This document shows, piece by piece, positions 2,419 through 54,895 of a stretch of 58,730 bases of DNA. Source of the stretch: Formosa agariphila KMM 3901 (GTDB taxonomy: Bacteria > Bacteroidota > Bacteroidia > Flavobacteriales > Flavobacteriaceae); contig NZ_HG315671.1 of NCBI RefSeq assembly GCF_000723205.1, positions 2,738,209-2,796,938 on the forward strand, given 5' to 3'. The position numbers were made by a program, and so were the translations under genes. Under the pieces are notes generated by a model. The model ran no database searches, was not told the origin of the DNA, and worked only from the letters and a program-made list of their open reading frames with translations. Every line of letters starts with the position of its first letter. Positions within the stretch are counted from its first letter, which is position 1.

Positions 2419-3492
2419 ATGAATCATAAATTAAATGTACTTTTTGTATTACCTTCTCTTTCTGCAGGAGGAGCTCAAAGAGTTATGTCATTTGTTTCAA
2501 GAAATATTAATAAAGAGAAATTTAATACAACACTATTAATTGCTGGCTCTTCTATCGATACGGCATATGACATTAGTGGTGTAAAAGTAATTTATTTAAA
2601 TAAAACGAGACTTCTCACCGCATTGCCTTCTATAATGCAACATATTAGAAAATTGAAACCACAGGTTGTAATAAGCTCTATTTCGCATACAAATTTAGCA
2701 ATGTCAATGATTTCTCCATTATTTAAAAAAACAAAATTTATTGGAAGAGAAGCTACTATATTAAGTGAAAATAATAAAGAAGCAAATTCTAGGAGATGGT
2801 CTCCAATTCATCTTGTTTCTAATAAATTCAAAAATTTAGATGTGCTTCTTTGTCAATCTAAAGATATGGCAGAGGATATGATTCTTAACTATCAAGTGCC
2901 TAAGGAAAAAATAAGTATTATTAATAATCCAATTTCAAACTTACCACCTATAAAAACAATAAGCAAAACAACTAAAACGAAAAAATTTATAACTGTAGGT
3001 AGATTATCTGAAGTAAAAGGACATTTAAGATTATTAGAAATATTAGCGCAACTTAATTACCCTTTTAAATATACTATTATTGGTGAAGGAGAATACAAAA
3101 ATCTTATTTTCGAAAAAGCTAAAGAATTGTCTATTTTAGACAATATAGAATATATACCCTTTACGAATGAAGTAAATGCATATTTATCTAAAAATGACAT
3201 GTTTTTACAAGGCTCCTTTGTGGAAGGGTTTCCTAATGCTCTATTAGAAAGCTGTGTAGTTGGCACACCTGTTATAGCCTTTAATGTCCCTGGTGGTACT
3301 AGAGAAATTGTTGAAAATAATGTTAATGGATTTCTAGTAGAAAATGAAATTGAATTTTTGCAAAAACTTTCTGATAATCGGATTTGGAATCCAAAAGAAA
3401 TAAGAGAATCAGTGTATAAAAAATTTAATGAAGGTAAGATTATTAAGCAATATGAGGATCTAATCACTAAAACTGCGAAACAAATTAGCTAA
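2419..3492 (+). CDS. Glycosyltransferase family 4 (GT-B)
   Basis: The product resembles retaining GT4 glycosyltransferases that move a sugar from a nucleotide donor onto a lipid-linked oligosaccharide at the cytoplasmic membrane face. The N-terminal LPSLSAGGAQRV motif begins the first Rossmann domain, FITVGRLSEVKGHLRLLE begins the donor-binding domain, and EGFPNALLESCVVGTPVIA is the C-terminal E-x7-E donor motif. I chose the ATG at 2419; a TTG at 2395 in the same frame would add eight residues. It is first in a rightward run of three GT4 genes and a phosphodiesterase-like gene. The next gene starts 10 bases after its stop. The sugar specificity cannot be read from the sequence. Confidence 0.85.
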   Translation: MNHKLNVLFVLPSLSAGGAQRVMSFVSRNINKEKFNTTLLIAGSSIDTAYDISGVKVIYLNKTRLLTALPSIMQHIRKLKPQVVISSISHTNLAMSMISPLFKKTKFIGREATILSENNKEANSRRWSPIHLVSNKFKNLDVLLCQSKDMAEDMILNYQVPKEKISIINNPISNLPPIKTISKTTKTKKFITVGRLSEVKGHLRLLEILAQLNYPFKYTIIGEGEYKNLIFEKAKELSILDNIEYIPFTNEVNAYLSKNDMFLQGSFVEGFPNALLESCVVGTPVIAFNVPGGTREIVENNVNGFLVENEIEFLQKLSDNRIWNPKEIRESVYKKFNEGKIIKQYEDLITKTAKQIS

Positions 3493-3502
3493 AATTAAAA
3501 AA

Positions 3503-4555
3503 ATGACAGTAGTACATATTAATATTGGTTTAGGAGGTGGAGGTGCAGAACACATTATTTTGGAATTAGCAGAAAAGGGTAATAAAAATGGCATTAAAAA
3601 TATTGTCATTTCTTTGTCTAGTATTAACCAAATTGAACATAAATTCAAAAAAGCAGATATAGAAACACATTTTCTTAACATAAACTCTATTTCTAATCTA
3701 AAATCGAGTTTAAATCAAATTAACAACATCCTTAAGCCTTTAGACCAAGTTGTATTTCATTGCCATATGTTTCATGGATTAATGTTCGGGATTTTGTACA
3801 GTCTATTTCACAAAAAAACACCTATAGTTTTTACACTACATAATACCTTAGTTAGATTACCATATAGACGTTATCTTCTATATATATCAAAACACCTTAG
3901 AAAATTTGATATTAATTTTAGTAAAGATGGTGAAAGATGGTATTTAAAACCCATTACCGTTATAGCCAATGGTGTAGATTTTAATAAATTTGTAATATCG
4001 AAACAAAGGTCGTATAATGTAAATGAAAAATTTGTTTTTCTGTTCATTGGTAGAATTCAAGAACAAAAGAATCCTCTTTTTTTAGTTGATTTAGTAACAA
4101 AGTTATTAAAGGAAGGCAAGTCAAATTTTGAAATTCAAGTTGCGGGCGATGGAAATTTAAAAGGTGAACTAGAGGAGTTAGTTACATTAAAAAATTATGA
4201 TAAATATATTAAACTTTTAGGGTTTCAAAATAATGTGAAACAATTATTAGAAACATCTCATTGCATTATTATGCCATCATTATGGGAAGGTTTACCTGTA
4301 ACGCTAATTGAAGCATCTACTACGTTATTACCTATAATAACAACCCCCGTTGGTAGTATACCGGAATATTTTAATGATGAGAATAGTTATGTAAGTGAAT
4401 TAGATAGTTTTCACCTTCATATGATTCAAGTAATGGAAGATTATGATGGAGCTTTAATAAAAGCAAAAGTGTTGTATAAAGATAATAAATCAATTTTTGA
4501 TATAAATGAGGTGTACAAAAAGCATGAAATATTATATCGAGAGTGTTTACAATAA
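3503..4555 (+). CDS. Glycosyltransferase family 4 (GT-B)
   Basis: This 350-residue protein has the GT4 layout. GLGGGGAEHIILELAEKG at the N-terminus is the acceptor-domain glycine loop, FVFLFIGRIQEQKNPLFLVD starts the donor domain, and PSLWEGLPVTLIEASTTLLPII carries the conserved E-x7-E pair. It probably adds one sugar during repeat-unit assembly. It follows the previous GT4 gene closely and is followed after 75 bases by a third, which suggests co-transcription. Base composition is strongly AT-biased, as in the other genes of this block and unlike the proline genes at the right end. Confidence 0.85.
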   Translation: MTVVHINIGLGGGGAEHIILELAEKGNKNGIKNIVISLSSINQIEHKFKKADIETHFLNINSISNLKSSLNQINNILKPLDQVVFHCHMFHGLMFGILYSLFHKKTPIVFTLHNTLVRLPYRRYLLYISKHLRKFDINFSKDGERWYLKPITVIANGVDFNKFVISKQRSYNVNEKFVFLFIGRIQEQKNPLFLVDLVTKLLKEGKSNFEIQVAGDGNLKGELEELVTLKNYDKYIKLLGFQNNVKQLLETSHCIIMPSLWEGLPVTLIEASTTLLPIITTPVGSIPEYFNDENSYVSELDSFHLHMIQVMEDYDGALIKAKVLYKDNKSIFDINEVYKKHEILYRECLQ

Positions 4556-44380: not shown

Positions 44381-44793
44381 CGTGATTCTGAATTATTTCA
44401 GACTCCCACTCGCTTTTAAATCACACTCCAATGAGATACCGAATCCAGTTCGGCATGATGATATCAGTAACAAAGCAATGTAAAGTCAATAAGAAAAACC
44501 ACACCCCAACGGCCTATCGAAACATCAGCGTAAAATGTACAGTGAAGCATCCGCAAAATTTTAGGCTGTTTGAGCAAGGAAATCTTGCTAAATAATAGAA
44601 AACGTATTTTAACCAATTGGTATATTTAAAAAGATAAGATATTCAAGCGAGTTCATAAAATTTAGGATGCAAGCATAACATTTAGATGAAGTTTCGTAAG
44701 CCTCGATTTACTTTGTCCTGAGCTTAGTCGAAGGGTTTGTTACTTTTTTGGGCAATGCAAAAAAGTAAAGAACAAACAATACCCCCAATCAAT
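44381..44793. repeat. Composite 414-bp repeat, copy 1
   Basis: First of three near-identical head-to-tail units. Each starts with a REP-like pair (GTGATTCTGAATTATTTCAG and CCGAATCCAGTTCGG) and has a spacer with CGGCCTATCGAAACATCAGC. Then comes a long folded element: arms AAATGT/ACATTT at 44533-44538 and 44678-44683, GCATCC/GGATGC at 44547-44552 and 44665-44670, and AAATTTTA/TAAAATTT. Last is a hairpin TTACTTTTTT/AAAAAAGTAA at 44740-44768. No coding frame runs through it. Confidence 0.9.
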
Positions 44794-45207
44794 CGTCATT
44801 CTAAATGCATTTCAGACTCCCACTCGTTTTTAAATCACACTCCTATGAGATACCAAATCCAGTTCGGCATGACGATATCAGTAACAAAGTAATATAAAGT
44901 CAATAAGAAAAACCACACCCCAACGGCCTATCGAAACATCAGCGTAAAATGTACAGTGAAGCATTCGCAAAATTTTAGGCTGTATGAGCAAGGAAATCTT
45001 GCTAAATAATAGAAAACGTATTTTAACCAATTGGTATACTTAAAAAGATAAGATATTCAAGCGAGTTCATAAAATTTAGGATGCAAGCATAACATTTAGA
45101 TGAAGTTTCGTAAGCCTAGACTTTACTTGTCCTGAGCTTAGTCGAAGGGTTTGTTACTTTTTTAGGCAATGCAAAAAAGTAAAGAACAAACAATACCCCC
45201 AATCAAT
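44794..45207. repeat. Composite 414-bp repeat, copy 2
   Basis: Head-to-tail copy of the preceding unit with only scattered base differences, for example CATTCGC for CATCCGC in the left arm and TATGAGC for TTTGAGC. The boundary is set at CGTCATTCTAAATGCATTTC, the start of the REP-like pair. Confidence 0.9.
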
Positions 45208-45596
45208 CGTCATTCTAAATTCATTTCAGACTCCCACTCGTTTTTAAATCACACTCCTATGAGATACCAAATCCAGTTCGGCATGATGATATCAGTAACA
45301 AAGTAATATAAAGTCAATAAGAAAAACCACACCCCAACGGTCTATCGAAACATCAGCGTAAAATGTACAGTGAAGCATTCGCAAAATTTTAGGCTGTATG
45401 AGCAAGGAAATCTTGCTAAATAATAGAAAACGTATTTTAACCAATTGGTATACTTAAAAAGATAAGATATTCAAGCGAGTTCATAAAATTTAGGATGCAA
45501 GCATAACATTTAGATGAAGTTTCGTAAGCCTAGACTTTTTTGTTACTTTTTTGGGCAATGCAAAAAAGTAAAGAACAAACAATACCCCCAATCAAT
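45208..45596. repeat. Composite repeat, copy 3 (25-bp deletion)
   Basis: Third unit, almost identical to copy 2 but lacking 25 bases that contain CCTGAGCTTAGTCGAAGGG just before the T-rich hairpin. The hairpin TTACTTTTTT/AAAAAAGTAA itself is kept. Confidence 0.9.
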
Positions 45597-45660
45597 CGTC
45601 ATTCTGAATTCATTTCAGAATCCCACACACTTTTAAATCGCACTCTAACGGCCTATCGAA
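45597..45660. repeat. Partial fourth copy of the composite repeat
   Basis: CGTCATTCTGAATTCATTTC with its inner palindrome (TTCTGAA/TTCAGAA) is followed by CACACTTTTAAATCGCACTC and then jumps to ACGGCCTATCGAAA, so the middle of the REP pair is deleted. The folded element does not follow. Confidence 0.75.
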
Positions 45661-45761
45661 AAACCTTTAAAACCCATTCATAATTCATTACCCCCCTTAG
45701 AGTCAGTTTCGCATCTGGTTCGCAAAACGGTCTATTTTCGAAAAATACACCCGAAGCGGTA

Positions 45762-45794
45762 TCGAACAAAGCCCGAACAAGACTCGAACAAAAC
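45762..45794. repeat. Three 11-bp direct repeats (CGAACAA core)
   Basis: TCGAACAAAGC, CCGAACAAGAC and TCGAACAAAAC follow each other without a gap. The core CGAACAA recurs every 11 bases, close to one helical turn. They stand just before the 10-bp-phased array upstream of the DUF6266 gene. Confidence 0.7.
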
Positions 45795-45810
45795 CCTTAT
45801 CTGACCAAGA

Positions 45811-45940
45811 ATCTGTTTCAAGAACGTTCAGAAGGTTTCACAACCGTTCAGCGTGTTTCAACATGTGTCAATTTGTGTCAGCGTGTATCAAAACCATTCA
45901 ATGCCTATCAATATATCCCTACAGCTGCCAATACCATTCA
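45811..45940. repeat. 10-bp-phased array of TCA-ending blocks
   Basis: Ten consecutive 10-base blocks from 45811 to 45910 each end in TCA, preceded by TT, GT, AT or TA (for example ATCTGTTTCA, AGAACGTTCA, GAAGGTTTCA, CAACCGTTCA, GCGTGTTTCA, ACATGTGTCA). After two unlike blocks one more, ATACCATTCA, falls in the same register at 45931-45940. The five-base lead-in varies. A 10-base period cannot be coding and puts each TCA on the same helix face. It ends about 65 bases before the DUF6266 start. Confidence 0.85.
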
Positions 45941-46005
45941 ACACATTGATTTTTAAATAAATAGCTTTTACATTAGTCATCTATTAACTCTAAAACCATA
46001 ACGAT

Positions 46006-46647
46006 ATGGCAATTTTCGAAAAAGGCATACTAGGCGGATTCTCCGGCAAAGTAGGCAACGTAGTAGGCTCGCGATGGCGAGGAAAAGATGTAATGCGCAG
46101 TTTACCTCAACGGGGTAATTATACACCAACTGCTAAGCAGGAGGAACAGCGTAAAAAGTTTAAGACGGTGATTTCGTTTTTAACTCCCATATTATCTGTA
46201 GTAAACATGTATTTTGGGAATAAACAAGGCGATAAATCGCGGTATAATTTGGCGGCTTCGTACCACTTACGGGAAGCTGTTATTGCCTCGGGTTTGGGGT
46301 ATGCTATGGACTATACTAAAGTGCTTATTAGTAAAGGCGATTTACGAGGTATAGACAATGGCGCCATGACAGCGGCGGCGGGGCAGACACTTAATTTTAC
46401 TTGGGTGGATAACAGTGGGCAAGGTAATGCCACAGCTTTTGATGAGTTTATGGTGGTGGCGTATGCACCAGACCTAAACACGTTTTACACCAATTTAGCA
46501 GTAGATACCCGAGATGCAACTGCTGCTAGTGTAACCTTACCACCGTTTATGGCGGGTTTTGAAGTGGAAGTCTGGGCTTCGTTTAACAAACCTGGAACCC
46601 ACCAAGCGGCGATAAGCACGTACATGGGTATGGCTACCATACTGTAA
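46006..46647 (+). CDS. DUF6266 family protein
   Basis: The 213-residue product has the DUF6266 form found in many Bacteroidota: start MAIFEKGILGGFSGKVGNVV, then GSRWRGKDVMRSLPQRGN, then FLTPILSVVNMYFGNKQGDK, RYNLAASYHLREAV, and a beta-rich C-terminal half (TLNFTWVDNSGQGNATAFDE) that resembles an Ig-like or fibronectin-like domain. No signal peptide is evident. The function is not known. GC content is clearly higher than in the glycosyltransferase genes. It lies alone in the repeat-rich island, preceded by phased repeats and followed by a terminator. Confidence 0.85.
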   Translation: MAIFEKGILGGFSGKVGNVVGSRWRGKDVMRSLPQRGNYTPTAKQEEQRKKFKTVISFLTPILSVVNMYFGNKQGDKSRYNLAASYHLREAVIASGLGYAMDYTKVLISKGDLRGIDNGAMTAAAGQTLNFTWVDNSGQGNATAFDEFMVVAYAPDLNTFYTNLAVDTRDATAASVTLPPFMAGFEVEVWASFNKPGTHQAAISTYMGMATIL

Positions 46648-46670
46648 GCTTACACCGGGACCTCTTGACA

Positions 46671-46720
46671 AAGCGCATATTTTTGTATCCGTAATCTGGT
46701 ACAGAAATATGTGCTTTTTT
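46671..46720 (+). terminator. Rho-independent terminator of the DUF6266 gene
   Basis: AAGCGCATATTT (46671-46682) plus TGTA pairs with TACA and AAATATGTGCTT ending near 46715, followed by a T-run. Stem mismatches are few (a C/T position and one bulge). Confidence 0.75.
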
Positions 46721-46834
46721 AAAGTACAGTTATTACACGAGCAAGCGGATGCCGTATTAAGTATAATCGCCACGTCCTACAATCCTAAAATCTATTTTGA
46801 TGGGTTGCAAGAGGGGTATATACTTTTTTTTTGA
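46709..46834 (+). CDS. Possible 41-residue small ORF
   Basis: An ATG inside the right arm of the terminator opens a frame reading CFFKVQLLHEQADAVLSIIA, TSYNPKIYFDGLQEGYILFF before TGA at 46832-46834. It has no recognisable domain and no promoter, and its start is buried in a hairpin. It may be a fragment of an older gene. Confidence 0.2.
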   Translation: MCFFKVQLLHEQADAVLSIIATSYNPKIYFDGLQEGYILFF

Positions 46835-46856
46835 GGTATACGGTACAGTGCAATCC

Positions 46857-47114
46857 TTAATCTATTTTTAAGTTACGCTTAGAACCATGTAACAGTAACT
46901 GATTTAAAAAACTTTTAGGAAACAACAGTACCCCGCCTAATTTGAAACTGGGAATCATGCCTAGTTTACGTAAGCGATAGATGGTACTCCTGCTTACATT
47001 TAAATGTTTCATGGTGGCATCGATTGTTAACCATTCTTCATTTTTATAAAATTCGGAATCAAAATGTAGGTCTTTGTTTAGGGCTGTTGGTGTGTTTGCT
47101 TTTGTCGTCTTCAT
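46857..47114 (-). CDS. Small helix-turn-helix (excisionase/MerR-like) protein
   Basis: The 85-residue protein contains a winged HTH of the excisionase type: EEWLTIDATMKHLNVSRSTI, YRLRKLGMIPSFKLGGVLLF and PKSFLNQLL. The W-x-x-x-x-x-x-x-L-x-V-S-x-x-T-x-Y-R pattern and the following I-P-x-x-K-L-G-G strand are typical of HTH_17 proteins of mobile elements and of small regulators. No integrase gene is present. It converges on the DUF6266 gene and sits between two repeat-rich stretches, so it is probably left from a mobile element or regulates a neighbour. Confidence 0.75.
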   Translation of the reverse strand: MKTTKANTPTALNKDLHFDSEFYKNEEWLTIDATMKHLNVSRSTIYRLRKLGMIPSFKLGGVLLFPKSFLNQLLLHGSKRNLKID

Positions 47115-47401
47115 CGTCCTATACGTTTTTAAATATTATAAATAACTAAAATTCAAGTTATTATACCTAAGATACTAATTTCAAACAGCATCTAAAAGTC
47201 TTAACCTAAAAATACGTAGGACTACGTAGATTGATAACACTCTCCAATTTTCTAAAAAAACGACGGCATTTAATACAAAGGAGCTTTGTGTAGACCCCCT
47301 TTTAACTGTATAGTAAGAATCTTAATTGGAGCTTCAATAAAACGGGCTAACTCTTTTAAATCTCGCACTGAGCAGAGTTGAAGGACGAGAAGTTTTCATT
47401 C

Positions 47402-48319
47402 CTAATACAAATAATGCTTCCCTTTTTGGATATTTATTTCACGACTCCTCATAATATCTGGACTAGCTGCTAACATTAACATTAAAGTTTTTTGGTGTTG
47501 AGCTGCCCTTTTGAACTTACCTTGAAGTTTTAATTTTAAAATATCTTTTTTCAACTGCGATATTTGTTTTTCGTGCTTGTCCGTGTTTAGTAAATTAGAA
47601 TGTTTTAATTTGAATATTCGTAACGTTTTAGAGTAATAATGCTCACTAAACTCTGTAACTTTAGACCGCACCCGATCTGCTCTATCGTGAATTACATACC
47701 CCTTTGGAACGACACCAATTTTTAACCCATGGAACAACACACGTTGGCAGTAATTATCATCTTCTCCATAATGAAAAAACAAAGGATCAAACCCTCCTAC
47801 AGTTTCTAAGCAGTGTTTAGAAATTAACCAAGCCGCCGCATTTACAAACGATACAGGATAAACAGCTGCTAAAGTATTTCCTAACACAAAGTCTGAATAA
47901 AATGGATTAGATCTATCACGAAGCATATAGCCAGAAAAATTATAGTCTAACCGTTTTTCATCTGCTGTAATATGTACAGGACTTAAAATGCCATACTCCT
48001 GATGCATGTTTTGAAATTGAACTAGCTTATCCAATACATTACTCACCAAATAGGCATCTTGGTTTAACAAAAACACTTGTTCAGCGCCTTGATCTAAAGC
48101 ATACCGAATACCTATATTATTCGCCTGACCAAAGCCTTTGTTTTCAGTTTGTGGCAAGACAATTATTTTTGGAAAGTGTTTATTAATATAATCTACCGTC
48201 TCATCTGTAGACCCATTATCTACAACCACAACGGGATAGTCTACACAACTTTTTAAGCATGTATCTAGCCATGGCATGCCATTGTAAGTGACTATGATTA
48301 TAAATGATGTGTCAATCAT
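47402..48319 (-). CDS. GT2 glycosyltransferase, rhamnosyltransferase-like
   Basis: GT-A enzyme of 305 residues. SFIIIVTYNGMPWLDTCLKS and VVVVDNGSTDETVDYINKHF are the N-terminal strands, FLLNQDAYLVSNVLDKLVQF has a NQDA site in place of DxD, and GGFDPLFFHYGEDDNYCQRV is the acceptor/ED motif. These features match the WbbL/rhamnosyltransferase branch of GT2. It is the last gene of the leftward wzm-wzt run and overlaps the preceding GT2 gene by 4 bases. Confidence 0.9.
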   Translation of the reverse strand: MIDTSFIIIVTYNGMPWLDTCLKSCVDYPVVVVDNGSTDETVDYINKHFPKIIVLPQTENKGFGQANNIGIRYALDQGAEQVFLLNQDAYLVSNVLDKLVQFQNMHQEYGILSPVHITADEKRLDYNFSGYMLRDRSNPFYSDFVLGNTLAAVYPVSFVNAAAWLISKHCLETVGGFDPLFFHYGEDDNYCQRVLFHGLKIGVVPKGYVIHDRADRVRSKVTEFSEHYYSKTLRIFKLKHSNLLNTDKHEKQISQLKKDILKLKLQGKFKRAAQHQKTLMLMLAASPDIMRSREINIQKGKHYLY

Positions 48320-49245
48320 TTTACCTTATAATAATATTTTTTAACGATACTTAAATTCTTATAAACTGACTTAATACCATTTTTTAAATTAGTTTGCTGC
48401 TTAAAGTTTGATAAAATCAATGCTAAGGAAGCTTGTAAAAAATGCTTTTTTTCTATCGAATGGGAATACGAGATCACTGTTAACGCTATAAATGCTTTTA
48501 ATTTATCAAAAGAAATTTTATTATTGCTATATTTTTTTATAAATGGGAGCAAATTAAAATCCCTCATCATTTGTTCCGAAATGACATTGTTAGAAATCCC
48601 TCCCTCATTTTTTCTATAAACAGCAGTTATTTCCGGTATCATTTTAGTTTTTCCAAAACATGAAATCAACAAAAATAAAGTTCTATCTCCAGATAATATA
48701 TTTGTTGGGAAATCTGATTTAAATAACTCTTTCTTAAACATATAAGTAGCTGTGTGAAAATGTCGCCCTTCTAAAAAATCATTGGTAACTAAAGTATCTT
48801 TAATATTCTTTTTAAAATTATGACTTGCTTTATTATTACCTTCATATTTTATCAAAGAATTAGACGCTATTGCAGAGAAATCACTATTCCCCTCCATAAA
48901 ACCAACCTGTTTTTGCAGTTTTAAAACGTCTGTCCAATAATCATCTCCTTCACACAAAGCAATATATTTTCCTCTACACTCTTGTAATGCCCAAACAAAA
49001 TTTGGAATCATACCTTTATTTGGTTGATGCTTTACATAACGTATCCAATGAGCATTCTTATGAGTACGTTTAATTTCTTCTACAATTGTTTGAGTACAGT
49101 CTGGAGAACAGTCATCTGCTATTAGTAACTCTACTTCAAAATCACACTCTTGCATTAAAACACCTTCAATAGCTTGCTTAATGTAATCTTCATGTCCATA
49201 AGTAATCATACAAACAGATACCATAATATTGGGTCTAATAATCAT
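48316..49245 (-). CDS. Glycosyltransferase family 2
   Basis: GT-A enzyme with VSVCMITYGHEDYIKQAIEG, LLIADDCSPDCTQTIVEEIK, GKYIALCEGDDYWTDVLKLQ (EGDD metal site) and SGDRTLFLLISCFGKTK. I use the ATG at 49245 (309 residues); a TTG at 49251 would add two. The related WcaA-type enzymes often start at the later Met before VSVCMITY. It begins 9 bases beyond the restored stop of the frameshifted acyltransferase and shares 4 bases with the next GT2 gene. Confidence 0.87.
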   Translation of the reverse strand: MIIRPNIMVSVCMITYGHEDYIKQAIEGVLMQECDFEVELLIADDCSPDCTQTIVEEIKRTHKNAHWIRYVKHQPNKGMIPNFVWALQECRGKYIALCEGDDYWTDVLKLQKQVGFMEGNSDFSAIASNSLIKYEGNNKASHNFKKNIKDTLVTNDFLEGRHFHTATYMFKKELFKSDFPTNILSGDRTLFLLISCFGKTKMIPEITAVYRKNEGGISNNVISEQMMRDFNLLPFIKKYSNNKISFDKLKAFIALTVISYSHSIEKKHFLQASLALILSNFKQQTNLKNGIKSVYKNLSIVKKYYYKVK

Positions 49246-49254
49246 CGACAAATT

Positions 49255-49778
49255 TTAATAGTCCCTTCTTCCTTGATTTAATTTTTTTACAGGAACCCCT
49301 ACATTAACAGACCAAGCTTCTAAATTTTTGTTACTAAACTCATTGCTCCAGTTACCGCACCTTCACTAACAACTACATTAGGAAGTATCGTTGAGTTAGC
49401 TCCAATTTGTGAATATTTTTCTAAAAATATTTCTCCTGAAATAATATGATTATGAATTGGCTTAGACATCGGACTCATTAAATAATCCCCATTAAAATCA
49501 TCTGAAGCTGAAAACAAGGTACATCGAGGTGAAAGCCCTGAAAAATCTTTCATTACAATACCATATTTTCCATATAATGCACAATAGGCAGAAATATGTA
49601 TATGAGAACCTAATGTTATTTTCCCAGATAATATACAAAAATCATCAATTCGAACATGACTCCCTATCACTAAATCTCCTGGATTATAAAGCCTAGCGAA
49701 CCTACTGATATAGACATCTGTTCCAAAGGATTTGACTCCCAACTTTTTCAGCTCATCTATTGAATAAAAAGAATTCAT
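49255..49778 (-). pseudogene. Frameshifted left-handed beta-helix acyltransferase
   Basis: The open frame (49320-49778, 152 residues) carries hexapeptide repeats (IGSHVRIDDFCILSGKITLG, HIHISAYCALYGKYGIVM, YSQIGANSTILPNVVVSEG) and stops at AMSLVTKI. One base shift in the run of five A after ACA lets the frame continue as NLEAWSVNVGVPVKKLNQGR and RDY to a stop at 49255-49257. That is the normal C-terminal end of this family. So one A seems lost, by real mutation, slippage or a sequencing error. The enzyme would N- or O-acylate a sugar, plausibly the product of the adjoining VioA-like aminotransferase, whose end it overlaps by 4 bases. Confidence 0.8.
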
Positions 49779-50836
49779 ATTAAAAATTTAGAAATTTGAT
49801 TAATTATTTTATTTTCCATACCTGCCCACAATGGCAAACATAATATCCGTGAACTTATACTCTCTGTAATTTTACAATCCACATTTTCAATATAGGGTAA
49901 ACAATTTAAACTTGGATAAAAATAACGTCTAGGATATATATGATTCGTATTCATTTTTCTTTGAACTTGTAGTAACTCACTCTCAGAATTAAAAATTATA
50001 GGATAATAACTATTATTCCATAAAGTACCTTCTCTAATTTTTAACCTTTGAAAAGAAGTCTCTTTCAATATTTCATCATACAGTTTAACTGCACGACTAC
50101 GAGTACTCATTATTTCAGTTATATGAGAAAATACAGCTAGTCCCATTGCTGCCTGTGGCTCACTCATTTTAGCATTAATACCTAAACCATGAAATGCTTC
50201 AGCTCCATCATGTCCAAAATTATGGTGATAAAACATATCGTCATAAAACTCTGGTTTACAAAATAAGGCCCCACCTTCTCCTGTATGAAATAACTTAGTA
50301 GCATGAAAACTGCACGTACTTACATCACCATATTCAAAAATAGATTTCCCTTTATATGTTACTCCAAAACAATGTGCTGCATCGTAAATTACTTTCAGAT
50401 TATATTTATCTGCAATGATTTGGATAGCTTCTATATTACATGGATTTCCAAAAACGTGAGTTGCTAATATTGCTGATGTATTAGGTGTAATTGCTGCTTC
50501 AATCTTGGTTTCGTCAATTGTTAAATATTCTGGATGAATATCGACAAAAACAGGTGTACAACCTTCCCAAACAATACTACTAGTAGTAGCCACGTAACTA
50601 AATGGAGTCGTAATAATTTCGCCTTTTAAACCTAAAGCTTTTATAGCTATTTGTAAAGGTAAAGTACCATTTGTCATGGCAATAAGGTTAGTAACCCCTA
50701 AATGAGATTGCAATTGAGCTTCAAGTTCTCTAACTAAAACACCTCGATTAGTCATCCACCCCGTTTCCCAAGCACATTTCAAAATCGCTTGATACTCTTC
50801 TTGGGGTGGTAAAAATGTTTTAGTGACGTTTATCAT
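49775..50836 (-). CDS. PLP sugar aminotransferase, VioA-like
   Basis: DegT/DnrJ/EryC1/StrS enzyme of 353 residues. TKTFLPPQEEYQAILKCAWE, TGWMTNRGVLVRELE, TTPFSYVATTSSIVWEG and YDAAHCFGVTYKGKS (PLP-contacting Asp152) lead to the Schiff-base Lys181 in SFHATKLFHTGEGG. These phrases are closest to VioA, which makes dTDP-4-amino-4,6-dideoxyglucose. An acyltransferase gene follows, as vioB follows vioA in other loci. No dTDP-glucose synthase genes (rmlA, rmlB) are in the window, so the substrate must come from elsewhere. Confidence 0.85.
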   Translation of the reverse strand: MINVTKTFLPPQEEYQAILKCAWETGWMTNRGVLVRELEAQLQSHLGVTNLIAMTNGTLPLQIAIKALGLKGEIITTPFSYVATTSSIVWEGCTPVFVDIHPEYLTIDETKIEAAITPNTSAILATHVFGNPCNIEAIQIIADKYNLKVIYDAAHCFGVTYKGKSIFEYGDVSTCSFHATKLFHTGEGGALFCKPEFYDDMFYHHNFGHDGAEAFHGLGINAKMSEPQAAMGLAVFSHITEIMSTRSRAVKLYDEILKETSFQRLKIREGTLWNNSYYPIIFNSESELLQVQRKMNTNHIYPRRYFYPSLNCLPYIENVDCKITESISSRILCLPLWAGMENKIINQISKFLI

Positions 50837-50848
50837 TTAATTATCAAA

Positions 50849-52108
50849 TTATAAGTTTTCCCATTCAAACATTGGTTTAATATAACCTGGCTCCTTACCC
50901 ATATAACTTCCAATTTCCAAACTCCCATTTATTATTGTAAAACTTATTACGTTGTCTTCAACCCATACAGCACGTTTACCATCTTTAACTAAAAAAAACT
51001 TTAAAAAGAACGTTCCTGGATTAAAAAAATATGCTGGGATTAAAGTCTTTAAATGATTTTTCCCTGTTTTTAATTTTACTTCGGATTTTAAATGATGGAA
51101 ACTAAATAAAGCATCTCCTTCATCATTTATTAAATGATAAGTAACATGATATTTCTCAGAATCTTTTTCAATTTTTAATATTGTTTCTAATACAATTTCT
51201 TCAGATTCTACAATAACAGCTTCATTTTCTCTATTAGCATTTCGCAATCCTATTTCTAAAAGTTCAAACACACCTTTTTGAATTACATCATTAAACGTTC
51301 TAACATTATTAACTATTAAATTTCCTGATTTTAAATAAAAATCTACAGCCTCATCAACCCCACCTTCAAACACAGTCATCCCATGCTCTAAAACAATAGC
51401 ACGTGTACACAAATTCTTCACAGCTGCCATATTATGACTTACAAACAACACGGTACGGCCATCGCTTTTACTTATGTCCTGCATTTTACCAATGGCTTTC
51501 TTCTGGAACTCGGCATCACCTACCGCCAATACCTCGTCAATCACTAAAATATCGGGTTCTAAAAAAGCAGCTACAGCAAAAGCTAAACGCACACGCATCC
51601 CTGAACTATAACGTTTTACAGGGGTATCGACATACCGTTCGCAACCGCTAAATGCGATAATCTCAGATTCCTTGGCTTTAATTTCAGCCTTGGTCATCCC
51701 GAGAATGGCACCGTTTAAATAGATGTTTTCACGCCCTGTTAATTCGGGATGAAACCCCGTTCCTACTTCTAGCAAACTGGCTATACGGCCGCGGGTTTTA
51801 ATCTCGCCCGTAGTCGGACTCGTTACACGAGATAATATTTTTAAAAGCGTCGATTTCCCTGCACCATTCTTACCTATAATACCTAGGACCTCGCCTTGTT
51901 GCACTTCGAAATTAATATCTTTTAATGCCCACGCATAATCGCTACTGCCTTTGGTACTGCGGTTGTTCTCTTCCCCTATTTTTAAATACGGATCCTCTTT
52001 ACCACGTACGTGGTGCCACCAACGGTTTAAATCGTGACTAATCGTACCGGTACCTATTACCCCTAAACGGTATTGTTTACTTATATTTTCGGCTTTTAAT
52101 ATAGTCAT
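50849..52108 (-). CDS. wzt: ABC polysaccharide exporter ATPase with C-terminal domain
   Basis: The nucleotide-binding domain has Walker A IIGKNGAGKSTLLK (about 78-90), signature YSSGMRVRLAF (about 166), Walker B PDILVIDEVLAVGDAEF and the switch SHNMAAVKNL. The N-terminal part has the long insertion (SHDLNRWWHHVRG) seen in O-antigen and teichoic-acid exporters. From about residue 250 there is a beta-rich Wzt C-terminal domain, which in known systems recognises the chain end. At 419 residues it is the long form. The partner permease lies 785 bases upstream on the same strand, separated by repeats and a small gene. Confidence 0.95.
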   Translation of the reverse strand: MTILKAENISKQYRLGVIGTGTISHDLNRWWHHVRGKEDPYLKIGEENNRSTKGSSDYAWALKDINFEVQQGEVLGIIGKNGAGKSTLLKILSRVTSPTTGEIKTRGRIASLLEVGTGFHPELTGRENIYLNGAILGMTKAEIKAKESEIIAFSGCERYVDTPVKRYSSGMRVRLAFAVAAFLEPDILVIDEVLAVGDAEFQKKAIGKMQDISKSDGRTVLFVSHNMAAVKNLCTRAIVLEHGMTVFEGGVDEAVDFYLKSGNLIVNNVRTFNDVIQKGVFELLEIGLRNANRENEAVIVESEEIVLETILKIEKDSEKYHVTYHLINDEGDALFSFHHLKSEVKLKTGKNHLKTLIPAYFFNPGTFFLKFFLVKDGKRAVWVEDNVISFTIINGSLEIGSYMGKEPGYIKPMFEWENL

Positions 52109-52190
52109 TAGTTGGTAGTGTTTAGTGTGAGTCGTGAATCGTTAGTTGTGAGTCGTTAGTTGTTAGTCGTAAATCGTTAGTTGTGAATCG

Positions 52191-52246
52191 TTAGTCGTTA
52201 GTCGTTAGTCGTTAGTTGTTAGTTGTTAGTTGTTAGTTGTTAGTTG
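52191..52246. repeat. Tandem 7-bp repeat array, (TTAGTCG)3(TTAGTTG)5
   Basis: Eight exact 7-base units, preceded by about 80 bases of degenerate forms (TTAGTTGTGAGTCG and TTAGTCGTAAATCG types) from 52112. The array fills the space between the wzt start and the four-helix bundle gene. Its TTAGTTG unit is the same as in the array at 44.3 kb. Confidence 0.9.
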
Positions 52247-52252
52247 TTTAAT

Positions 52253-52600
52253 TTATTTTTTAATAATATAATTTCTGTATCCTAAAATAAGTTTTTTTAC
52301 GTTTATAATTAAGGTGTACAAATCTTTATGTTCTTCTAGTAATTGTAATCTTAGTATAATTAAATATTGTGTTTCTACCTCGGCCACTGAACCCAATGCG
52401 TAATTAAGAAAATTCAACAATTCTTTATCTCCTCTTCTAGCGCTTCCTTCTGCAATATTTGAAGGCACAGATACAGCAGCGCGTCTAATTTGTGAACATA
52501 AACCATATTTTTCTGATTCTGGTAAATCTGATGTCCATTTATAAATAACAGTCACTAAATCCATACTTCGTTTCCAAACATCTAGTTCCTTATAATCCAT
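52253..52600 (-). CDS. Four-helix bundle protein (23S rRNA-intervening-sequence family)
   Basis: The 115-residue protein reads as four amphipathic helices: YKELDVWKRSMDLVTVIYKW, YGLCSQIRRAAVSVPSNIAE, GSARRGDKELLNFLNYALGS and AEVETQYLIILRLQLLEE. SQIRRAAVSVPSNIAEG is the family signature. Relatives occur in intervening sequences of 23S rRNA genes and, as Avd, in diversity-generating retroelements, but many stand alone with unknown function. It is inserted between the permease and ATPase genes of one ABC exporter and flanked on both sides by 7-bp repeats, which suggests it arrived as a small unit. Confidence 0.9.
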   Translation of the reverse strand: MDYKELDVWKRSMDLVTVIYKWTSDLPESEKYGLCSQIRRAAVSVPSNIAEGSARRGDKELLNFLNYALGSVAEVETQYLIILRLQLLEEHKDLYTLIINVKKLILGYRNYIIKK

Positions 52601-52662
52601 AATTCAAAATATTCATTAGTTTCATCACCCAATTTTAAACTTCATAAACCCGACTCACGATT

Positions 52663-52883
52663 TACGTTTACCAATTTATGATGTTCCGATTCACATTTTA
52701 TCGATTCACGTTTCCTCAATTCACGATAAACCGATTTATCGATTCACCATTCATGATTCCTCAATTCACGATAAACCATTCACGATAAACCATTCACGAT
52801 TCACCTTTCACCATTAACGATTCCTCAATTCACCATTCACCATTCACCATTCACCATTCACCATTAACGATAAACCATTCACC
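52663..52883. repeat. Degenerate and tandem CACCATT 7-bp repeats
   Basis: Five exact CACCATT units occupy 52831-52865. Before and after them are looser words of the same character (GATTCAC, CGATAAACC, ATTCACGATAAACC, GATTCCTCAATTCAC) from about 52663 to 52883. The period is mostly 7 or 14. The array lies between the permease stop and the four-helix bundle gene. Confidence 0.85.
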
Positions 52884-52892
52884 AGCCCTAAC

Positions 52893-53774
52893 CTAAACCG
52901 TATCAATAAACTTCTTCTCTGTGCTATTAAACACGATCAGTCCGAATAAAAACACCAATACGCTTACTGCGCCTATATATATAATTTGCAGACTTGATAT
53001 CTCTCCAACGCCTAGCATAATATGTCGAAACGCTTCTATAACAATAGTCATGGGATTATATGCTACAAGCCAAGAGATACTCGGTAATTTTTCTTCGAAA
53101 TATGATAACGGATACATCACTGCCGAGCCGTACATTAATAGTTGTACCCCAAAACCGACTAAAAAGGTTAAATCGCGATATTTTGTAGTCATTGATGAGA
53201 TAAGCATCCCGAAACCTAAGCCTAATAATCCCATAATGAGAACAAGAACCGGTAAGAGCAACAAACTAAGTTCTGGTCTAGCAGCATAAGCTTTGTCTGT
53301 AAACACCGTGAAATAGATATAAAACCCAATAAACACGAGCATTTGAATACCAAATTTCACCAAATTAGAGACCACTATCGACATAGGAATTATGACTCGT
53401 GGAAAATAGACTTTTCCAAAAATGGACTGGTTTTTAGTAAACGTATCGCTGGTTCCTGTTAGGCAGGCCGAAAAATAGTTCCAGGCGGTAATTCCAGCTA
53501 GGTTAAACAAAAAGGCAGGCACACCCGGTTTTACAGGGATGGCAGCCAAATTATTAAAAATAACCGTAAAGATTATAGACGTAAATAAGGGTTGAATAAA
53601 ATACCATAATGGCCCCAAAATGGTTTGCTTGTATACCGTGACAATATCACGCTTAACGAATAAAAACAGTAAATCTTTATATCGCCAAATCTCTTTAAAA
53701 TTAAGATCGATTAATTTCCGTTTAGGTGAAATGGTATATAACCAAGGTAATTCTGGTTGGTCGGCTGGATTCAA
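52893..53774 (-). CDS. wzm: ABC-2 type polysaccharide exporter permease
   Basis: Inner-membrane permease of 293 residues with six hydrophobic helices. The N-terminal cytoplasmic part has WRYKDLLFLFVKRDIVTVYK and QTILGPLWYFIQPLFTSIIF, the ABC2_membrane signature of O-antigen and teichoic-acid exporters. GKVYFPRVIIPMSIVVSNLV is the usual coupling region, and YPLSYFEEKLPSISWLVAYN followed by PMTIVIEAFRH is the conserved C-terminal loop. It moves a finished lipid-linked chain across the membrane with the ATPase encoded downstream. It is the first gene of the leftward run to 47.4 kb. Confidence 0.94.
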   Translation of the reverse strand: MNPADQPELPWLYTISPKRKLIDLNFKEIWRYKDLLFLFVKRDIVTVYKQTILGPLWYFIQPLFTSIIFTVIFNNLAAIPVKPGVPAFLFNLAGITAWNYFSACLTGTSDTFTKNQSIFGKVYFPRVIIPMSIVVSNLVKFGIQMLVFIGFYIYFTVFTDKAYAARPELSLLLLPVLVLIMGLLGLGFGMLISSMTTKYRDLTFLVGFGVQLLMYGSAVMYPLSYFEEKLPSISWLVAYNPMTIVIEAFRHIMLGVGEISSLQIIYIGAVSVLVFLFGLIVFNSTEKKFIDTV

Positions 53775-53966
53775 TGGATTTATTTTAGTTGCGCTAATAT
53801 AATAAATGCTTGCGAATTACAAATTATGAATTGGTATTAGTTGCTGGTTGAATGGTTGAATGGTTGAATGGACGAAATCTTGTATTAGAAACCTAAAACT
53901 TTAACAGCTCATAACTAAAAAGAGATTGAAGTTATATAAAATCAACAAGAAAAACCACGCTTCCAA

Positions 53967-54047
53967 CGTCATTCTGAATGCATTTCAGAATCTCAAACGC
54001 TTTAAAACCACACTCCAATGAGATACCGAATCAAGTTCGGCATGACG
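53967..54047. repeat. REP-like palindrome pair
   Basis: CGTCATTCTGAATGCATTTC with the inner palindrome ATTCTGAA/TTCAGAAT, then about 30 bases, then CCGAATCAAGTTCGGCATGACG-type sequence. The ends CGTCAT and ATGACG are complementary, so the whole unit can close into one hairpin. Five forms of this unit occur within 700 bases. Confidence 0.85.
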
Positions 54048-54099
54048 AGACTTTCAGCTAAGAACAATTCACAATCATAAAAACCAAACATCCTCCCAA

Positions 54100-54180
54100 C
54101 GTCATTCTGAATTCATTTCAGAATCTCACACGCATTAAAACCATACTCCAATGAGATACCGAATCAAGTTCAGCATGACG
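54100..54180. repeat. REP-like palindrome pair
   Basis: Same build as the unit at 53967, with TTCATTTCAGAATC in the first half and AAGTTCAGCATGACG at the end. The long structured repeat follows directly, as in the tandem units at 44.4-45.6 kb. Confidence 0.85.
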
Positions 54181-54512
54181 ATATCAGTAACAAAGCAATG
54201 TAAAATTAATAAGAAAAACCACACCCCAACGGCCTATCGAAACATCAGCGTAAAATGTACAGTGAAGCATCCGCAAAATTTTAGGCTGTTTGAGCAAGGA
54301 AATCTTGCTAAAAAATAGAAAACGTATTTTAACCAATAGGTATATTCAAAAGATGAGAGATTCAAGCGAGTTCCTAAAATTTAGGATGCAAGCATAACAT
54401 TTAGATGAAGTTTCGTAAGCCTAGACTTACTTGTCCTGAGCTTAGTCGAAGGGTTTGTTACTTTTTTGGGCAATGCAAAAAAGTAAAGAACAAACAATAC
54501 CCCCCATCCAAT
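54181..54512. repeat. Dispersed copy of the structured composite repeat
   Basis: Nearly identical to the right-hand part of the 414-bp unit: spacer, ACGGCCTATCGAAACATCAG, left arm GAAGCATCCGCAAAATTTTA, inner hairpin AGCAAG/CTTGCT, right arm with GAGTTCCTAAAATTTAGG, and the hairpin TTACTTTTTT/AAAAAAGTAA. One difference from copy 1 (CCTAAAA for CATAAAA) extends pairing with TTTTAGG. It lies about 9 kb from the tandem copies, upstream of wzm. Confidence 0.9.
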
Positions 54513-54593
54513 TGTCATTCAGAATTCATTTCAGAATCTCACACGCTTTAAAACCACACTCGAATGAGATACCGAATCAAGTTCGGCATGACG
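54513..54593. repeat. REP-like palindrome pair
   Basis: TGTCATTCAGAATTCATTTC and its partner half CCGAATCAAGTTCGG ending CATGACG. It brackets the structured repeat on its right side, while the unit at 54100 brackets it on the left. Confidence 0.85.
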
Positions 54594-54648
54594 ACACCTT
54601 CAACTTAGAACATGAAATCCCAAACATAAAAACAAATGATGAACCTAG

Positions 54649-54680
54649 CGTCATTCTGAATTTATTTCAGAATCCCACAC
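54649..54680. repeat. REP-like half unit
   Basis: CGTCATTCTGAATTTATTTC with TTCTGAA/TTCAGAA palindrome and CCCACACGC after it; the second half with CCGAAT/TTCGG is missing. Confidence 0.75.
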
Positions 54681-54730
54681 GCATAAAAACACACTCGAAT
54701 CTATAAAACCGTCCTCAATTTCGACTTCGG

Positions 54731-54895
54731 GACCCAACCGATGAAGCATCCGTAAAATAAAAAGCTGTTTGAGTACGTCATTAAGCGGACGAGTTCTTTT
54801 TATTTAGGATGTAAAACGATGTTGGGTGAATAAGAAAGTGCAGACTAGATTTTTTTGGTTCGTTTTTTTAGCAATGAAAAAAATGAACAAAACAT
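54731..54895. repeat. Diverged relative of the structured repeat, with compensatory changes
   Basis: It shares GAAGCATCCG, GCTGTTTGAG, GAGTTC and TTTAGGATG with the main repeat but has different helix sequences that still pair. ACCCAAC (54731-54737) pairs with GTTGGGT (54820-54826), where the main copies have AAATGT/ACATTT. AAATAAAAAG pairs with CTTTTTATTT, replacing AAATTTTA/TAAAATTT. GTTCGTTTTTTT (54857-54868) pairs with AAAAAAATGAAC (54876-54887), replacing TTACTTTTTT/AAAAAAGTAA. The apical part is short (CGTC/GACG). Confidence 0.8.

Follow-up and report, generated by a model that had tools for sequence, protein, structure and literature searches.

A conserved folded repeat without a named family in intergenic regions of Bacteroidia

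Introduction

Do the related sequences that recur within a 58,730-nt window of the Formosa agariphila genome (the whole stretch of DNA analyzed here) represent a fold kept by selection and, if so, which strand folds, how far does the element range, and what might it do? A first-pass annotation of the window had named short shared words and helices at these places, and both proved correct when the coordinates were rechecked. We find five copies of one folded element of ~170 to 270 bases, all on the + strand (at ~44.5, 44.9, 45.4, 54.2, and 54.7 kb):

44511-44778, +, element copy 1, with a long apical insert and a REP (repetitive extragenic palindrome)-like insert at 44714-44735 before hairpin 2
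44925-45192, +, element copy 2, in a tandem unit of 414 bases
45339-45581, +, element copy 3, without the REP-like insert
54231-54497, +, element copy 4
54711-54888, +, element copy 5, a diverged relative with a short apical hairpin

Results

Five Copies of One Fold in the Window

The proposal that these sequences form a repeat of five related copies sharing a fold was borne out by scanning the window, with filters off, with the second of two covariance models: the five copies were recovered at E 4e-14 to 3e-18 (four of the five being related to sequences used in building the models) and the next-best place at E 0.87. The host genome, a single contig of 4.23 Mb, yielded five model matches, which are the five of the window, and also holds one 3' half of the element elsewhere. 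Copies 1-3 recur in tandem with a 414-base unit (97% identity across 300 bases) and copy 4 is 88-95% like them; in effect there are thus two independent sequences, and the window alone is unable to settle covariation.

Anatomy of the Fold

Reading the copies gave a fold in the order foot (P-1), P0, P1, P2, P3, internal loop, apical part, linker, and an A/T-rich hairpin 2. The foot is GGC/GCC, or GTC/GAC or GCC/GGC, with an internal loop CTA/TAA. P0 has ~12 pairs in the commonest class (class I, 69 of the 92 aligned copies described below), in which 602 of 822 cells are paired. P1 has 6 pairs and is followed by a loop that is often GAAG, P2 has 5-6 pairs and the freest sequence of any helix in the family, and P3 has 10 pairs. 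Beyond P3 lies a near-constant internal loop, CTGTTTGA facing GAGTT, and its nearly constant bases are compatible with putative tandem G-A pairs. Some copies have a short hairpin as their apical part and others a piece measuring 36-40 or 72-75 bases; the apical lengths cluster at ~7-11, 16-21, 36-40, and 72-75 with free sequence, a few rows having been misread by the pattern. Such lengths are reminiscent of a guide-RNA spacer, a reading that we do not adopt. About thirty copies (e.g., L139, L146, L172) have a near-constant apical length of 36-40, a few roughly double that, again with free sequence. In copy 5 the parts, all on the + strand, lie as follows:

54711-54713, foot P-1, 5' arm GTC, partner GAC at 54843-54845, assigned from the letters and from foot covariation in the family
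54732-54738, P1, 5' arm ACCCAAC, 3' arm at 54821-54827
54747-54751, P2, 5' arm CATCC, 3' arm at 54807-54811
54755-54764, P3, 5' arm, 3' arm at 54796-54805
54765-54772, near-constant internal loop CTGTTTGA, facing GAGTT at 54791-54795, with the length-variable apical part between
54858-54888, hairpin 2, loop at 54870-54876, which in relatives pairs with the linker

The foot of copy 5 is absent from its minimum-energy fold. The main domain of copy 5 (z -3.7) and the outside copy L081 (z -2.4) fold more stably than shuffled sequences, the 44.5-kb copy is less clear (z -2.0), and hairpin 2 of copy 5 on its own folds no better than shuffles (z -0.55).

In copies with a CTTGA linker the loop of hairpin 2 is usually complementary to that linker. 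Among the 36 copies without CTAGA-type linkers, 25 reach at least 5 linker/loop pairs (shuffled mean 17.3, maximum 22 in 200) and 20 reach at least 6 (mean 9.2, maximum 14), and with CTAGA-type linkers just 1 of 69 copies reaches 5. The loop and linker are predicted to form a pseudoknot in part of the copies. With a foot, P0, a lone pair between P1 and P2, and this pseudoknot, the structure is larger than the first-pass annotation had described.

Covariation of the Helices

To address covariation we used 92 non-redundant copies, nearly all from outside the window, aligned with MAFFT with the apical part masked and without any structure model. They derive from 147 listed matches, partly the same copies, of which 115 were picked by hand (array copies omitted) and 92 remained after removal of near-duplicates; the set includes one doubtful place in genome G021 and a few weak matches, and the apical mask ended early in several rows. 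All five helices exceed every one of 300 shuffles in Watson-Crick cells: 449 of 548 in P2 (shuffled mean 224, maximum 246), 864 of 919 in P3 (584, 624), 709 of 1080 in P0 (469, 510), 415 of 547 in P1 (352, 366), and 198 of 213 in the foot (164, 173).

Because shuffles are blind to kinship, columns were also simulated on a FastTree tree; this tree-preserving null, with 40 and 60 replicates, is our own approximation of R-scape and not R-scape itself. Of 14535 column pairs in the 92 copies, 12 pass at E 0.05. Nine of these fall within P2 or P3; the remaining three are canonical and had not been predicted. Seven pairs pass in the 69 class I copies (three in P2, one in P3, one in P0, and two new). 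When only the 37 annotated pairs are tested, 17 are significant in the larger set and 18 in the smaller. Both sets contain a new covarying lone pair between P1 and P2 (GC, TA, AT, CG) and a new covarying pair between the linker and the loop of hairpin 2 (TA, CG), the latter belonging to the putative pseudoknot; the loop-closing pair of hairpin 2 is significant in the 92-copy set only. In addition, two adjacent copies retain, in both species, a compensated pair that distinguishes them.

The 92 copies settle the question in favor of helix covariation. The earlier proposal of covarying helices thus holds for P2 and P3, and in one set for P0, on the strength of these relatives; the five window copies alone, from which it had been drawn, were insufficient. 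Covarying pairs survive a tree-aware test that approximates the one suggested by the annotation, and copies in which helices are lost and primary sequence is kept, the outcome that it had named as damaging, do occur among degraded copies, noted without a survey (the 3' half in the host's own genome, and copies in L169 and L175 whose arms have been deleted or replaced). Overall, the data support an RNA or DNA fold that is kept by selection and has no named family.

One Strand Folds

Non-canonical cells flanked by good pairs comprise 33 G-T and 12 A-C (p 0.001). Hairpin 2 has 19 G-T and no A-C, possibly reflecting few underlying events, and the unrestricted counts are 127 G-T and 86 A-C. This asymmetry indicates that one strand folds by itself, as RNA or as single-stranded DNA; a double-stranded cruciform should give no wobble asymmetry.

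Distribution Across Genomes and Viral Contigs

The first covariance model was built from L081 and three window copies and the second from 56 matches, and the E-values of both are rough owing to short calibration. Within the host's family the first had matches in 104 of 397 genomes, in 78 of 237 genera (E 0.01), in line with the annotation's suggestion of similar words in other Flavobacteriaceae. The second found the element in 41 of 345 genomes sampled from the class (E 0.001), five in the same family, two in the same order, and 34 beyond it. Since 9 or 10 candidates were scored in each genome, the copy numbers per genome are minimum values. A model scan of 578,873 bases, copy-free as far as known except for L081, gave nothing else below E 0.25. 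An exact-word scan of named genomes returned at least 80 stretches, and among those listed L081 is the sole copy by the model (others E 0.25 or above), and a word scan of 299 family genomes matched G000 and one place in G021; that place is doubtful (30 bits with the model), and G021 has at least 9 other matches.

A loose pattern caught 27 viral contigs; four of these contain a total of seven copies that reach E 1e-7 or better, and another carries a core fragment at E 0.007. A strict pattern gave no match in the viral contigs, and the plasmid and phage records searched gave none. Contig L352 encodes terminase, portal, capsid, and cement proteins and has sense copies in the gaps on either side of the cement gene; L363 has a portal gene, and L356 and L368 yielded only proteins of unknown function. 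Within cellular genomes, dispersed copies have equal scores on different contigs in G643 and are closely alike in G326, and tandem arrays occur in the window and in G014. In another genome (L256-L257, G468 C2:303000-335000), eight + strand copies and one - strand copy lie within ~23 kb, and three model matches there stop 46 bases ahead of the stop codon of a convergent gene. Across many families of Bacteroidia the element largely keeps its loop, its five helices and often the predicted pseudoknot.

Genomic Position and Neighbors

Orientation was assessed in 67 intervals, obtained after merging repeats and dropping missing neighbors and six cases with a gene more than 1500 bases away; open reading frames (ORFs) came from a simple caller, and the intervals are partly dependent (G100 gives at least 5). 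Of the 50 codirectional gaps, 40 hold the element in sense and 10 in antisense (p 1.2e-5), and the unfiltered counts are 50 sense and 15 antisense of 97. Sense copies lie, for example, between his genes and in a rhamnose-type sugar operon (names inferred from Pfam), and other neighbors include tatC with an ABC gene, kynureninase with a monooxygenase gene, and SIR2 with a phosphoesterase gene. Some operons hold several copies.

In the window, one gap precedes a DUF6266 gene and the other a pyrroline-carboxylate-reductase-like gene, with glycosyltransferase and ABC transporter genes in the surroundings. Palindromes of CGTC type (CGTCATTCTGAA...TTCGGCATGACG) are interleaved with the element copies at 45597, 53967, 54100, and 54649 (four exact words in the window, none in shuffles). 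A REP-like palindrome, TGTCCTGAGCTTAGTCGAAGGG, occurs in three of the four main copies (44714-44735, 45128-45149, and 54432-54453), inside the T tract that precedes hairpin 2, and other palindromes lie close to the same point in L168, L220, L221, and L293. A gene for a 23S rRNA intervening-sequence protein (PF05635) at 52253-52600 is flanked by simple repeats (52113-52261 and 52682-52884).

Gain, Loss and Change at Shared Sites

In the congeners G100 and G301, both his-operon copies of G100 are absent from G301; in another block one site is common, and each of the two genomes has one further filled site that is empty in the other. The filled and empty sites are too rearranged for a target duplication to be read. 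As in miniature inverted-repeat transposable elements (MITEs), the copies are dispersed, non-coding, and gained and lost between relatives.

At shared sites we compared the element with aligned flanking blocks, counting all gaps, in 11 comparisons (L290 used twice). Comparisons inside one genome were excluded, as were the G053/G273 and G296 regions with their many repeats, pairs without any difference, rows of G153 that occur twice, and the non-corresponding neighboring sites L178_16495/L290 and L189_4272/L206_3001. The element is more alike than its flanks in 7 of 11 comparisons, or 8 when two single inserts of 20-21 bases are set aside; gap-free identity gives 9 of 11. The higher values are 96.1 vs. 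86.7% and 97.7 vs. 89.0% at two sites of L180/L184, 91.0 vs. 79.8% in L188/L205, 84.2 vs. 76.0% in L192/L203, 83.0 vs. 78.2% in L202/L204 (where the 90 bases of 3' flank exceed the element in identity), 80.6 vs. 78.9% in L166/L185, and 86.9 vs. 86.7% in L178/L290 (element 96.6% without a single insert). Four of the 11 sites span different genera (L166/L185, L192/L203, L196/L290, and L202/L204), as does L189/L206 besides. In a further pair, G040/G262, the element is 96% identical, the 5' flank 57%, and the 3' flank 99%. Beside rteC, in L189 (2833-4440) and L206 (2937-4362), two copies and some upstream flank are swapped within the same gene order. Together, the shared sites and the gain and loss in gaps indicate that copies come and go, and that many, not all, change slowly while present.

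Search for a Mobilizing Enzyme

A Y1 transposase was considered as the mobilizer and is not supported. No Y1_Tnp (E 1e-8) was detected in 8 of the 10 genomes that reach the maximum of scored copies, although a protein search found a broken Y1 gene in one of these eight, G014, and the association across 397 genomes is weak (32 of 104 vs. 58 of 293, odds 1.8, p 0.029). In G320 a Y1 gene adjoins a mini-hairpin with the core loop, resembling a repeat-transposase pair. Used as a query, this gene matched 43 of 397 genomes; among the seven of these loci that were inspected, TGTTTGAG is present at the G320 locus and missing on that strand in the other six, one of which (L316) has it on the other strand. 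None of 20 further Y1 loci, drawn from the best-scoring matches, has a core hairpin by pattern. A 98%-identical copy of the insertion sequence (IS) in G320 aligns from ~3203-3210 of L276, inside the 3' side of the hairpin, and the mini-hairpin scores as a partial element (27 bits), which argues that the IS inserted into a truncated copy; L276 at ~3203-3799 accordingly reads as an IS200-type insertion within a truncated element copy. Among the loci inspected, the G320 insertion apart, no Y1 gene flanked by the repeat in the same genomes, the arrangement of REPs and their RAYT transposases, was found.

Relation to Known Families

Rfam 15 gave no match at the curated score in the window, in agreement with the annotation's statement that no named family was known; in 20 loci with relatives the lone match is a tmRNA (L212, 2394-2792), which does not overlap the element there (3001-3121). 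Below the curated score, two weak matches are at chance level (E 0.24 and 0.57). Literature searches by sequence words and topic, with subscription papers mostly outside their reach, found no title on the element. Unlike MITEs of the ERIC or bcr1 type, the copies read have no terminal inverted repeats at the element ends, running from a GGCC start to an A/G-rich end, and the inverted foot ends ~45 bases short of the 3' end (43 in copy 5). Nor is there a GTAG or CGTC tag at the hairpin foot in the copies read, the foot being GGCCTA/TAAGCC or equivalents.

Among the nearest counterparts of the element are ERIC sequences (Escherichia, Yersinia, Vibrio), which are intergenic, ~100-140 bases long, and form one long imperfect hairpin. 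According to PMC2267715, ERIC is predicted to fold as one long stem-loop and the yersinial ERIC regulates its neighbors through folding into RNA hairpins. The element differs from ERIC in sequence and host group, adds a second hairpin, a putative pseudoknot, and an internal loop that is nearly constant, ranges across a class, and lacks inverted repeats at its ends. Like the element, the bcr repeats of the Bacillus cereus group are dispersed and intergenic and some have conserved folds; PMC3446304 places 84 of 165 and 62 of 155 copies in two strains within messages, including gaps inside operons, and refers to a work whose title calls bcr1 specific to that group. This likeness is one of description.

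REP/REPIN and CGTC-tagged sequences are likewise intergenic palindromes, and those of CGTC type flank the window copies; CGTC repeats are reported from Bacteroidetes too (PMC3733652). REPs are reported to be 20-40 bases long, whereas the element is longer, lacks GTAG or CGTC at its foot, and has no firm Y1 link. The BOX elements of pneumococci have a modular middle part of varying length, to which the apical part of the element can be likened. To our knowledge, structured intergenic repeats have mostly been described from single genera or families.

Discussion

The computations show that the fold is conserved and which strand forms it, how widely the element ranges, that it lies preferentially in sense, that species gain and lose copies, and that at most shared sites it changes more slowly than its flanks. 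The sense bias, the strand-specific fold, and the slow change at many shared places fit a cis-acting RNA within messages. The patchy distribution, the arrays, the exchanged copies, and the presence in viral contigs and next to rteC are in keeping with mobility. We tentatively favor, at somewhat short of an even chance, a transcribed dispersed RNA element that acts in cis on messages and is like ERIC in its working and not in its descent. Placed chiefly in gaps between codirectional genes, its sense strand would be transcribed within the message and fold into a compound hairpin from P-1 to P3 with the apical part; after it would come a second A/U hairpin, which the pseudoknot ties to the linker. 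Most likely it would then affect processing, stability, or polymerase passage across the untranslated gap, as reported for ERIC-type elements, and phages and conjugative elements are plausible carriers to new sites. That the RNA is made, acts in cis, and has such an effect, and how it spreads, we infer.

Several observations weigh against a cis-acting RNA. The window copies occupy two divergent gaps (an 83-amino-acid ORF at 54455-54706 left aside), 17 of the 67 intervals are not codirectional (10 convergent, 7 divergent), and the 116 neighbors fall into 149 Pfam families, none present in more than four. Within the host genus the element is patchy, with none in G245 and at least 11 copies in G014. 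The element is not above its flanks in 4 of the 11 comparisons (61.2 vs. 72.5% in L196/L290; 86.7 vs. 87.0% in L292/L293, where it reaches 98.1% without one insert; and 67 and 70 vs. 95% at the two sites of L189/L206 with exchanged copies), and two of the seven higher comparisons differ by less than 2 points. Similarity between copies could also result from gene conversion or transfer.

A rival reading is a non-autonomous mobile element of MITE or REPIN type that is parasitic and nothing more, whose fold would be the single-stranded DNA substrate of a trans-acting enzyme and whose sense orientation would survive since antisense copies harm expression. Gain and loss between congeners, dispersed copies of equal score or close likeness, tandem arrays, viral-contig copies, and the exchange in L189/L206 all suit it, and single-stranded DNA would likewise yield the strand asymmetry. 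We regard it as a substantial possibility, if an improbable one on balance, since no mobilizer was found, Y1_Tnp being mostly absent where copies abound, no target duplication could be read at the rearranged sites, and the element changes more slowly than flanking blocks in most comparisons. A riboswitch-type leader of the downstream gene, for which the near-constant loop, the pseudoknot, and the sense orientation could speak, is very improbable given the lack of a consistent downstream class, the more numerous convergent than divergent gaps, and operons with several copies.

Two further explanations concern the arms themselves. Template switching during DNA repair in an imperfect palindrome could match arms without selection on the fold, and wobble cells are indeed few overall (20 of 919 in P3). 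Repair would, however, erase unequal internal loops, yet these are the most constant part, and it leaves the pseudoknot pair, the lone pair, and the strand asymmetry unexplained; this very improbable account is largely contradicted by the kept unpaired bases. Integron attC sites, recombination sites folded on one strand, have the box motif RYYYAAC/GTTRRRY, which ACCCAAC/GTTGGGT of copy 5 fits; variation at the hairpin end also suits such a site. These boxes are not matched by AAATGT/ACATTT, found in the other window copies, or by the AAATTT arms of the commonest class, and copies delimit no single-gene cassettes in the loci read, so that an attC-type site is hardly credible.

Returning to a cis-acting RNA, a broader proposition is a class-wide family of mobile elements of this kind in Bacteroidia, spread among operons, phages, and conjugative elements, with selection keeping a fold that tunes expression across gaps. 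We consider this unlikely, if still worth entertaining; if true, no structured intergenic element of this type known to us would range more widely. The element is missing from the RNA library searched (Rfam 15), and the covariance models allow its copies to be annotated now. A repeat that did no more than travel would be a large mobile family, non-autonomous and with no known engine; one acting on messages would constitute a common, unannotated layer of expression control in Bacteroidia.

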